In this document: piece after piece, positions 43,138-45,999 of the stretch
Layout: every line of letters begins with the position of its first letter
Position numbering within the stretch: the stretch's first letter is position 1
Source of the DNA: Labilibacter sediminis
GTDB lineage: Bacteria > Bacteroidota > Bacteroidia > Bacteroidales > Marinilabiliaceae
Reading direction: 5' to 3'
Assembly (NCBI RefSeq): GCF_005877885.1
Contig: NZ_VCHY01000004.1
Location: forward strand, 310,001-374,000
DNA length: 64,000 nucleotides
Program-made: the position numbers and the translations under genes
Notes under the pieces: model-generated
What the model was told of the DNA's origin: nothing
The model's database searches: none
The model's input: only the letters and a program-made list of their open reading frames with translations

Positions 43138-43742
43138 GTAGTGTACCGTGCATGGCTTTGAAATGATAAATTGCTTAGCTTATTATATTTTTAAAATTTC
43201 ATATAGGTGCTGAATCGATAAACTGTTGCAAAAAGTTAGTGGAGGTTAAAGAAGGTTAAGCTGCTGCCTTGCCCAATTTTTGGCACAGGATTTGAGTTTT
43301 TGACGGTATAGATTAAAGTTTTTTTTCATAGATTAGGGTTTAGGTTTAAAAAGGAACATTTCAACGGAAATGTTCCTTTTTTTCGTTGATAGAATCTTAT
43401 GTTTCTGCTAAAATTAGTAAGTACTTCTGCTATTACTTACCGGAGTTGAGTTGTGTTAATTAGTACATTTTAAAAGGATTTACATAAAACCTTTTAATAA
43501 ATTCTTAACACATTAAGCGTTATTTTTTAATGGGTGAAGATGAGGAAAAAGATAAAATATTTCAACTTTGTATCTTGTTTGAATACAGAGTGTTGGGAGG
43601 TTGTGCTGTATGTGTTTAAAAAAAAGGTATAACCAATTTCAGATTAAGGCGTAACAGGACTTTTACCTAATTCGTTATTGTATTTAGATGTCTGATATAT
43701 CTTAAAGTCAGGCCAATAATTTTATACCTAAAATTCATAGTT
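43138..43742. other. Long intergenic region upstream of the chemoreceptor gene
   Basis: These 605 bases contain no supported ORF. They hold the conserved non-coding element at 43226-43383. An inverted repeat, GTAAGTA / TACTTAC with a 10-base loop, lies at 43417-43440. The last 300 bases are AT-rich and presumably carry the chemoreceptor promoter, which I could not place with confidence. Confidence 0.6.
43226..43383 (+). ncRNA. Candidate small RNA gene, element A (promoter, box, terminator)
   Basis: From 5' to 3' it has: three GTTA half-sites at 43235, 43245 and 43255 (exact 10-bp period), a 17-base spacer, a sigma-54-like core TGGCAC-AGGAT-TTGA at 43281-43295, about 30 bases, a CATAGATTAGG box at 43327, and a perfect 10-bp terminator stem (GGAACATTTC / GAAATGTTCC) with a T run to 43383. 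If the core is a -24/-12 promoter, a start near 43306 gives an RNA of about 78 nt. No ORF of useful size is present. Element B repeats the same order and spacing. Confidence 0.55.
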
Positions 43743-45557
43743 ATGAATCTAAGAAGTATCCGATCAAAGATCCTTTTATCTTTTGGTCTTGTGGTGTTTG
43801 TAGTAATCGTGGCGCTTAGTTTAACTTTCTATTACACTATTAGTAGTACCTTAACCAAAGATATTCGAAATAAACAGTTGCATGCATTTTTAGAAGCATC
43901 GCAAAGTGATCTTAGAAATGAATTCGAAAAAGCCATTGAGTCATCCGTTGCACTTTCTTCGGATCCGGTTATCACAAAATGGTTTGAAGGAGATGAGCAA
44001 AATGATGAGTTGAAAGAACTTGCATTGGATAAGCTTGATGCCATAGTTGATGATTTTGGTTACTTTACAATCTTTGCTGTAAATGCGCGAACAAATAACT
44101 TTTGGACCAGTGGGCATAAGTTATTAGATGTTGTTTCGGAGTCAGATCCAGATGATAGTTGGTTTTTTGGAACCCTCAGAGGAGGGGTTAAGGTAACTAC
44201 AAATTTTGATACTAACGTGGAATTGAAAGAAACAGCACTGTTTATTAACGTACTGATGGGTGATACTTCAAATCCGCTTGGAATTGCCGGAGTTGGGCTA
44301 AACCCGAGTAGTATGGTAAAAGATCTGAACAGCAAGCGGTTCAGTGAAAATAGTTATATGTGTGTGATTGATGCCTCCGGAATGATTAAGCTTTCGCAGA
44401 ACGAGGATCATATTAACAAAGAAATAAGTACTATTTTTTCTCCGGATGTAGCTCAATCTATAATTAAGTCATCAGGTAAAAACCTACTGTCCAATGTAAA
44501 ACACAATGGAAAAAAATACGAGGTGGCCATAATGGATATGGGAAGTACGAAGCATAAAATCATTCTTACTTTGCCAACAAAAGAATTGGTTAGTTTATTG
44601 AATCCCATCAGAAGATATTCTGTAATTATCGGATTGCTTTTTCTAGCTTTTGCTTTGTCGTTGGCCTATTATATTTCACGTTCGCTGGCCAATCCAATCA
44701 TGAGTTTAAAGGCCATTGCAACTTCATTGTCGACAGGGGAGCTGAATGTGCATATCAATAAAGAATTAACACAGCGTAAAGATGAAATTGGCGAGTTGGC
44801 CGATATGTTTAACCGTATGAAAAGAAGAATTGCAGAAGTGATTATGCAGGTTAAGCATACCGGAAAATTAATTTCTGAGGGAGGTATCAGGTTGAGTAAT
44901 TCGGCAACCGAGCTTTCCACACGATCGATGCAACAGGCAAGTTCAACCGAAGAGGTTTCTGCATCCATGGAAGAGATGGGAGCCAATATTGAGCAAAATG
45001 CTGAAAACTCAAAACAGTCAGAAGTTTTGATGCAGCAGGCTTATAGTGATACTTTCCAGGGAGGTGAAATTGTAGAGGGTGCTGTGGAGGCCATAAAATC
45101 AATTTCGGAAAGAGTACGAATTATTGAAGAAATAGCCATGCAAACAAATATTTTGGCCTTAAATGCTGCGGTAGAGGCGGCACGAGCAGGAGAAGAAGGG
45201 CGAGGATTTGCAGTGGTGGCTACTGAAGTGCGTAAGTTGGCAGAACGAAGCAGAGAGTCAGCTGTTGAAATAAGCGAGCATGCCATAAGTAGTGTTGATG
45301 TTGCTGAAAAAGCGGGCGATATTTTCACCAAACTTGTACCTGATATTCAAAAAGCGGCCAATTTGGTTACTGAGATATCTGCTGCTTCCAGAGAGCAAAA
45401 CGAAGGTGCCAACCAGGTAAATAAAGCCATCTTAGAACTGGATTCTGTATCACAGGGAAATGCTTCTGCAGCTGATCATATCTCAGAACTTACTCAGTCA
45501 TTCTCAGAGGAAGTTGAAAAATTAAATGAAGTTATCTCTTTCTTTAAAGTGGATTAG
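43743..45557 (+). CDS. Methyl-accepting chemotaxis protein
   Basis: The 604-residue chemoreceptor has a first transmembrane helix at ~10-32, an extracytoplasmic sensor of about 255 residues (dCache-like, with [17 protein letters not shown] and [14 protein letters not shown] segments), and a second helix at ~292-312. A HAMP domain and a cytoplasmic coiled coil follow, with the signalling tip [31 protein letters not shown] near residues 463-495. It signals to CheA/CheW. No che or motility genes are nearby, so it is an orphan receptor here. It lies between two copies of the non-coding element. Confidence 0.93.
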
Positions 45558-45586
45558 TATATAAGGCTATGTTAAGGTAGTATTAA

Positions 45587-45619
45587 GGAGCATTTCTTTG
45601 GAGATGCTCCTTTTTTTTT
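45587..45619 (+). terminator. Rho-independent terminator after the chemoreceptor gene
   Basis: GGAGCATTTC and GAGATGCTCC form a 10-bp stem with a TTTG loop and one wobble, followed by nine T. Its stem resembles those of elements A and C. Confidence 0.92.
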
Positions 45620-45743
45620 ATTCGGAAAAACAAAATGTATAGTTCTTCTGTTTATATATCAGATTCAAGCAATAATCATTTTAAAAAAATGAAGAAGTTG
45701 ATAAAACGACACATGTTTGCTGGAGATGAGTAAACTAATACTC

Positions 45744-45903
45744 TTGTAAAATGTTACGGGAGGTTAAGGAAAGTTAAGCTGTTTGATTTCTTATTTTATG
45801 GCATAGCATTTGAAATAAATCACAACGAAGAGCAATAGTTTTTCATAGATTAGGTTAGGGTTTAAGTTATGAAATGTAGTGCCTCAGCGCACTACGTTTC
45901 TTT
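45744..45903 (+). ncRNA. Candidate small RNA gene, element B
   Basis: It is colinear with element A: GTTA half-sites at 45753, 45763 and 45773 (10-bp period), then 17 bases, then TGGCAT-AGCAT-TTGA at 45799-45813, about 30 bases, and a CATAGATTAGG box at 45844. A different terminator stem follows, GAAATGTAGTGC / GCACTACGTTTC, at 45871-45900. The upstream 38 bases match element A at 32 positions. The predicted RNA, starting near 45824, is about 80 nt. The T run is short, so read-through into copy C is possible. Confidence 0.52.
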
Positions 45904-45916
45904 ACAAGCAAGATTA

Positions 45917-45999
45917 GAGTAGATTTAAGATAGTTTTTTTTCATAGATTAGGGTTTAGGTTTAAAGAGGAACATTTCAATGGAAGTGTTCCTTTTTTTT
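45917..45999 (+). repeat. Element C: promoterless copy of the box and terminator
   Basis: It repeats the 3' half of element A almost exactly: a T run, the CATAGATTAGG box at 45942 with its GGTTTAGG extension, and the terminator stem GGAACATTTC / GAAGTGTTCC at 45968-45991 with eight T. The GTTA sites and TGGCA core are absent, so it may be transcribed only by read-through from element B. Confidence 0.7.

Follow-up and report, generated by a model that had tools for sequence, protein, structure and literature searches.

In the 64,000-nucleotide stretch of Labilibacter sediminis DNA analyzed here (the window; G000:C311:310001-374000, in the genome labelled G000), a chemoreceptor gene is flanked by two related plus-strand elements, A (43235-43383) and B (45753-45903), and a third module, C, follows B in tandem. 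We conclude that A and B/C probably belong to a FopS-like family of small RNAs (sRNAs) that is directed against susC genes and is under sigma-54 control. Computation established the family, a promoter motif with its spacing, a covarying hairpin, and a fit of the RNA seed to susC start sites.

This sRNA family is real, conserved, and multicopy, a variety of FopS-like RNA whose promoter is of the sigma-54 type, and it probably works as follows. A and B/C would be free-standing sRNA genes at which sigma-54 (RpoN) polymerase starts ~12 nt past the −12 element, probably assisted by an enhancer-binding ATPase and by a factor bound to GTTA repeats of 10-bp period. The RNA would present a single-stranded 5′ seed (U-tract-CAUAGAUUAGGGUUUAGGUU) and end at a hairpin followed by a U run. 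Through this seed it would pair across the start codon of susC-type mRNAs (AUGAAAAAA plus an A/U-rich leader), and the pairing would block translation initiation, as with FopS in Bacteroides. We infer that the RNAs are transcribed, depend on RpoN, repress their targets, and share descent with FopS.

Layout of the elements and their relatives

The features of the window are listed below in order of position.

43235..43258, plus strand: three direct GTTA repeats of A (43235, 43245, and 43255; 10-bp period), read from the sequence; predicted regulator site
43281-43295, plus strand: sigma-54-type −24/−12 core of A, TGGCACAGGATTTGA (TGGCACAGGATTTGAG over 43281..43296), score 13/15
43307..43383, plus strand: predicted small RNA A, ~77 nt, placed from the core position and the terminator, with the start put 12 nt after the −12 base
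43318..43346, plus strand: seed and box of A, U-tract-CAUAGAUUAGGGUUUAGGUU (box CATAGATTAGG from 43327), antisense to AUG-AAA-AAA starts and conserved in the genome and in the family
43353..43383, plus strand: terminator-like hairpin (43353-43376) and T run of A, from fold and covariation
43743-45557: chemoreceptor gene between A and B
45753..45776, plus strand: three direct GTTA repeats of B (45753, 45763, and 45773), read from the sequence
45799-45813, plus strand: sigma-54-type core of B, TGGCATAGCATTTGA (TGGCATAGCATTTGAA over 45799..45814), score 14/15
45825..45903, plus strand: predicted small RNA B, ~79 nt, first module of the tandem, placed from the core position
45844 onward, plus strand: box of B, with a hairpin at 45871-45900 and a weak T run, GTTTCTTT, read from the sequence
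45933-46000, plus strand: module C, second of the tandem, with U-tract, CATAGATTAGGG box, hairpin, and 8-T run, and without a core of its own

A and B are built in one order. Three GTTA sites, spaced at 10 bp, are followed after 22 bases by a TGGCAY-N5-TTGA core; the CATAGATTAGG box comes 30-31 bases later, and a hairpin and its T run close the element. Direct reading and alignment confirmed the coordinates and spacings of this duplication as given in an earlier, sequence-only reading of the window, including core-to-box gaps of 31 bases in A and 30 in B. That reading had predicted two RNAs of ~80 nt; the A and B modules are laid out as it described, but the window holds three modules, and C had been missed. 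The B RNA may end after its own module (~79 nt), or read-through to 46000 may add C to it (~176 nt). Fold z-scores were −1.8 for A (over a 93-nt stretch), −4.1 for B, and −3.2 for C.

A BLAST search of the window's own genome with A returned B at an E value of 9.3e-7, a copy on contig C332 at 2.5e-26, and a copy on contig C220 at 2.8e-10; because of these E values, we take the likeness of A and B to be far beyond chance. The cores of the other copies in this genome are TGGCACAGGGTTTGC in C332 (tandem), TGGCACAGGCTTTGT in C220, and TGGCACAGACTTTGC in C66 (tandem). The second module of the C66 tandem (L299) breaks off near the contig end, and half a module stands at the start of C220 (G000:C220:64-136, L008). 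The broken ends carry inverted end sequences, as if an insertion element had entered an sRNA copy.

From five modules of this genome we built a covariance model, R1, with which those five score high by construction. A, itself among the five, was matched at 43318-43386 with 92.2 bits, and C, also used in the building, scored 89.6 bits. The match to B (45838-45905) reached 34.0 bits, which is inside the range attainable by the hairpin alone (30 to 36 bits), as illustrated by the terminator of the chemoreceptor gene (45557-45620; 36.3 bits). Since a bare hairpin can score this well, weak matches were not counted as members, and the box was required in later counts.

A covariance-model search of related genomes had been proposed in the sequence-only reading. 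R1 matched 62 of 71 genomes of the window's GTDB family (probably Marinilabiliaceae) at an E value of ≤0.01 (49 of the 52 good-quality genomes), and a single genome had as many as 25 matches, weak ones included. The best-scoring R1 matches, rather than all of them, supplied the modules analyzed below. Of 154 model matches (116 + 38), 136 were kept; the 18 excluded were 15 that overlapped at the same place and three that were hairpin only, i.e., the chemoreceptor terminator and two reverse-strand hairpins. Removal of one duplicate and of five modules without the box left 130 distinct modules. An exact core-plus-box pattern run over a collection of named species (84,980 genomes) gave 71 matches in 61 stretches. 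Nearly all were labelled Marinilabiliaceae, Saccharicrinis, Carboxylicivirga, Labilibacter, or Bacteroidales, the exceptions by label being two contigs of one "Chlorobiota" metagenome-assembled genome (MAG) and one "Brocadiia" MAG. The comparison across relatives supports the earlier proposal that the elements are small-RNA genes of one family, with conserved blocks, their own terminator, and a core of the sigma-54 type. At each of two loci (L100 in G013 and L103 in G014), three sRNA copies stand in tandem at intervals of ~245 bp, every copy having a sigma-54-type core of its own, and the triplets adjoin a recurrent gene pair.

Across 65 aligned modules, 97.7% of the stem cells of the hairpin were paired, compared with 55.0% in shuffles, and 281 stem cells were double changed, compared with 76; none of 500 shuffles reached this count or this paired fraction. 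Information content in the three largest spacing classes was 1.7 to 1.9 bits per position over the seed half, compared with 0.7 to 1.3 between core and module. The contrast was weaker or absent in the small 40- and 41-nt classes (1.08 versus 1.09 and 1.62 versus 1.33), in which the modules stand in differing register.

Sigma-54-type cores and GTTA repeats

Cores were scored on 16 bases within 80 nt upstream of a module, on an in-script scale running to 15 with a cut-off of 13. At this cut-off, 78 of the 130 distinct modules had an upstream core, compared with 0.3% in block-shuffled sequence, and the core-to-module distance was 26 to 31 nt in 59 of them and 33 to 43 nt in 19. GG was present in 77 to 78 of these cores and TTG in 78, both counts being partly forced by the cut-off. 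In A and B alike, GG at −25/−24 is separated from the TTG preceding −12 by the spacing typical of sigma-54 (TGGCAYR-N4-TTG). The base after TTG, which was free, was C in 48 of the 78 cores, T in 12, A in 11, and G in 7. In A and B the last core base is A instead of C, as the sequence-only reading noted, A being one of several variants and C the commonest; the C332 and C66 copies have TTGC. Since A and B carry TTGA, we call their cores sigma-54 type and do not treat them as proven sigma-54 promoters. A further 14 modules, including C of the window, are second tandem members behind a first module that has a core.

GTTA repeats accompany many of these cores. GTTA-N5..7-GTTA, in either orientation, was found ≤75 bases upstream of the core in 44 of 101 distinct regions (15 forward and 29 reverse), compared with a mean of 1.7 in shuffled sequence, and further upstream it occurred in only 2 of 98 regions. 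Spacing within the pairs was exactly 10 bp in 44 of 48 cases. The distance to TGGCA was 22 nt in 13 of 17 forward copies, as in A and B, and 16 to 17 nt in 26 of 29 reverse copies. Judged from this arrangement, the repeats are probably the binding site of a regulator.

The gene for sigma-54, rpoN (PF04552), was found in 68 of the 71 genomes of the GTDB family, G000 among them, and in all 52 of good quality. It was also present in 23 of 24 further chosen genomes of the order, the exception being G195. The window's own genome has 14 matches to PF00158, eight of them strong. No PF00158 activator gene was tied to the sRNA sites, and the eight activator-gene loci showed neither 10-bp GTTA repeats nor cores.

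In the whole of this genome, 44 sites match TGGCAYRNNNNTTG, compared with 27 for the reversed pattern. One of 18 such regions inspected is the C66 sRNA, and tandem GTTA was absent by eye from the 65 bases upstream of the other 17. We also considered the PM2 promoter and rejected it because its described form, near-palindromic with −10 and −30 elements, differs from the core here. Two other shared upstream classes, without a sigma-54 core, stand before sRNA modules of the same kind in genomes of the GTDB family, one of the form GAGTATAAAGATTTATGA-AGCTTTCTTCATAAG... and the other of the form CGTAACC...AAAGAGTAATTTTTTTTCATAG (L101, L124, L126, L128, and L130; L034, L040, L093, and L095).

Fit of the seed to susC start codons

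The reverse complement of the seed is CCTAATCTATGAAAAAAAA, i.e., AUG followed by lysine codons. We compared the pairing of the seed with starts of susC genes and of control genes in the window's genome, taking the most upstream in-frame ATG as the start codon in both and leaving the controls unfiltered for susC genes. The susC set comprised 50 of the 52 matches over the cut-off (56 matches in all), two with an incomplete start being left out. With the seed of the C332 copy, the mean duplex energy was −15.3 kcal/mol at the 50 susC starts and −12.0 kcal/mol at 316 control starts (P = 3e-8), and the difference persisted with GC-matched controls (P = 9e-8). Windows shifted along the susC genes paired more weakly than the starts themselves, both downstream (n = 30; P = 4e-6) and upstream (n = 49; P = 3e-9). 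In the same test, the reversed seed gave a P value of 0.24, the complement 1, and the seed of Bacteroides FopS 0.012. The seed of A gave P values of 4e-8 against 232 nonsignal controls and 8e-6 against 84 signal-like ones. Among the 36 genes with the best pairing, 17 were susC genes, compared with 5.0 expected. Of the ten perfect matches to TAATCTATGAAAAA in the genome, the sRNAs themselves account for eight; a susC start is another, and the tenth is not at a gene start.

Alternatives and comparison with known systems

Several results weigh against the interpretation of A and B/C as sigma-54-controlled, FopS-like, anti-susC RNAs, and we set them out beside the alternatives that they touch. The RNA family could be real and its TGGCA/TTG core be read by the housekeeping or another sigma factor with the help of a GTTA regulator, which we consider unlikely. 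The GTTA repeats do keep a constant position close to the core, much as activator sites do at ordinary promoters, and such fixed proximal sites are unusual for sigma-54 enhancers. The core of A scores only 13, and A and B, ending in TTGA, lack the C of the canonical GC at −12. In G195 (L218; another family, 1.5 Mb, 99% complete), a module is preceded by a core of score 15 and rpoN had no match; unless the assembly simply lacks the gene, this argues against reading the core strictly as sigma-54. Scores of at least 13 were also reached in 16 of 126 control stretches taken further upstream of the family's modules, probably for the most part because they contain first-module cores of tandem copies. 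By the script's test, moreover, 38 of the 130 modules have neither their own core nor a cored first module (five of the 38 have a core 117 to 188 nt upstream), so that other promoters also appear to serve the sRNA family, and, since several of these modules have other upstream sequences in common, more than one promoter class appears to exist within it. Against another sigma factor stand the sigma-54 form and fixed spacing of the core, with the proviso on the GG and TTG counts given above, and the presence of rpoN in every good-quality genome of the GTDB family. The sigma-ABfr box (TAnnTTTG) points the same way: it lies ≤22 nt from 21 of 22 FopS modules (20 loci in other families), just one of which has a core score of ≥13, whereas in the present family it lies ≤40 nt from 4 of the 78 cored modules and 7 of the 52 others.

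There is a slightly better, though still small, chance that the RNAs are sigma-54 driven and that their main target is not susC, acting instead on other mRNAs or by binding protein. Control starts, too, paired better with the real seeds than with shuffled ones (z = −2.4 to −3.4, compared with −4.3 to −5.4 for susC), from which it follows that start codons in general fit the U-tract-CAU sequence. A smaller first test (30 susC starts versus 41 controls) gave P values of 0.05 to 0.11 for three full seeds and 0.75 for the box alone. A protein with an RRM_1 domain was found in 44 of the 71 genomes of the GTDB family and in 17 of its 21 genera, yet in 0 of the 9 genomes of the window's genus, where neither an RRM nor an Hfq protein was detected; should RbpB be needed as an antagonist of FopS-like RNAs, this genus either dispenses with it or employs another protein. 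On the other side, susC starts exceed both GC-matched and shifted controls, the reversed seed has no effect, and FopS, the nearest described family, represses susC (PMC11697453). That the elements are instead cis-acting leaders or terminators of neighboring genes (attenuators or riboswitches), or 3′ ends of upstream genes, is very improbable. A does precede the chemoreceptor gene and shares its strand. Among 71 sites in named genomes, with tandem copies counted singly, 60 had a downstream gene in reach, and it was on the same strand at 9 and convergent at 51. This survey largely refutes a cis-acting role; since the downstream genes are mostly convergent, we rejected a leader or attenuator and regard the RNA as most likely free-standing. 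The promoter-like core and terminator of the elements themselves speak against it as well, and the upstream genes in the window end, by eye, in terminator-like hairpins of their own. Least probable of all, to our minds, is that the elements have no function as RNA and are dispersed repeats or miniature mobile elements. The many copies per genome (up to 25 matches), some in tandem, would suit such elements. This alternative is opposed by the compensatory hairpin changes, by blocks that are better conserved than the spacers between them in the largest classes, by gene neighbors that recur across species, and by the fit of the seed to susC. Also to be counted against our own interpretation, double changes in all ten pairs of the hairpin are not unusual in themselves, having arisen in 149 of 500 shuffles, and the alignment was fitted to the model. 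Weighing, finally, against kinship with FopS, the FopS model (RF04319) gave 30.3 bits for A, 26.4 for C, and 21.1 for B, all under the gathering threshold of 56, and an Rfam scan of 15 loci from relatives had no FopS match at an E value of ≤0.1.

The sequence-only reading knew of no described RNA family like this one, a claim that no longer holds, since the 3′ half of the elements is FopS/GibS-like. An Rfam scan of the window gave no family at gathering level, and the FopS model found nothing in the window's own genome at an E value of ≤0.001. In a permissive search, all 71 model positions of FopS (1-71) were nevertheless covered by A, B, C, and the C332 and C220 copies, the last two scoring 36.6 and 34.3 bits, below the gathering threshold like the rest. 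In the other direction, R2, a model built from 65 modules of the present family, recovered the FopS module in 20 of 20 loci (59 kb searched) at E values of 8e-6 to 3e-3. On 81 kb of control DNA it gave one match, at an E value of 5e-4 and so inside the range of the FopS loci, which is itself antisense to a susC start. Across the order, FopS was above its cut-off in 55 of 295 genomes, and R2 matched 119 of 344, many weakly. The order search with R2 supplied 28 loci, of which three belonging to the window's own GTDB family and two poorly placed ones were excluded; of the 23 loci of other families then scored, three, all in family f9, had a score-15 core 29 to 31 nt before the module. A ATGTTRTAYAACAT-like palindrome recurs ahead of FopS promoters, ≤60 bases upstream of the modules, in several families (L162-L181; 7 of 22 in its scripted form, with looser forms by eye) and is a candidate site for a FopS activator.

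FopS is described as a family of paralogous sRNAs of Bacteroides thetaiotaomicron that is conserved within Bacteroidaceae, has sigma-ABfr promoters, and pairs at the start codons of SusC-like transporters, whose translation it thereby represses, with RbpB as an antagonist (PMC11697453). The RNAs described here resemble it in being short and multicopy, with a single-stranded 5′ U-tract-CAU seed, an AGGUUAA block, and a hairpin and U-run end, and in pairing across susC start codons, which in the present family is predicted. They differ from it in having a sigma-54-type promoter with GTTA repeats where FopS has sigma-ABfr, in their seed (UAGAUUAGGGUUUAGG versus UGGUAUUAGAUUUAAGG), in the tandem modules of the window's genus, and in the apparent lack of an RRM_1 protein in that genus (0 of 9 genomes). 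GibS (RF04182) has a seed region, R1, in common with FopS, and, unlike the present family, has the near-palindromic PM2 promoter and a second seed, R2 (PMC7366714 and PMC11697453; these seed names are distinct from our models). Element A matched GibS at 32.1 bits, far below its gathering threshold of 115. We take FopS and the present RNAs to be one superfamily with different promoters, and their sequence likeness would then reflect common descent.

A broader proposal, for which we see about as much to say as against, is that an order-wide FopS-like superfamily switched promoter class, with promoters of the housekeeping sigma-ABfr in gut families and, in Marinilabiliaceae and one further family, sigma-54 promoters with a proximal regulator at 10-bp repeats. 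An entire set of polysaccharide importers would then be posttranscriptionally under RpoN, and in the window's genus the RNAs would act without an RRM or Hfq chaperone. The FopS authors suggested that paralogous sRNAs could diversify through governance by different sigma factors, and the present family would be a natural case for testing that idea (PMC11697453). Among the open-licence papers listed by our searches, none reported sigma-54-linked small RNAs in Bacteroidetes/Bacteroidota or small RNAs of this kind in Marinilabiliaceae or Saccharicrinis. Elsewhere, Qrr of Vibrio and CrcZ/CrcY of Pseudomonas and Azotobacter are paralogous small RNAs under RpoN, as the present family would be, and CrcZ/Y are tied to carbon catabolite control. 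They belong to another phylum, are not known to be related to the present RNAs in sequence, and act with Hfq, which was found in 0 of the 71 genomes of the window's GTDB family. If A and B/C are what we propose, a bank of paralogous RNAs would let RpoN govern the uptake of glycans, much as unrelated RNAs serve it in other phyla, and the FopS kind would extend past the gut Bacteroidaceae.

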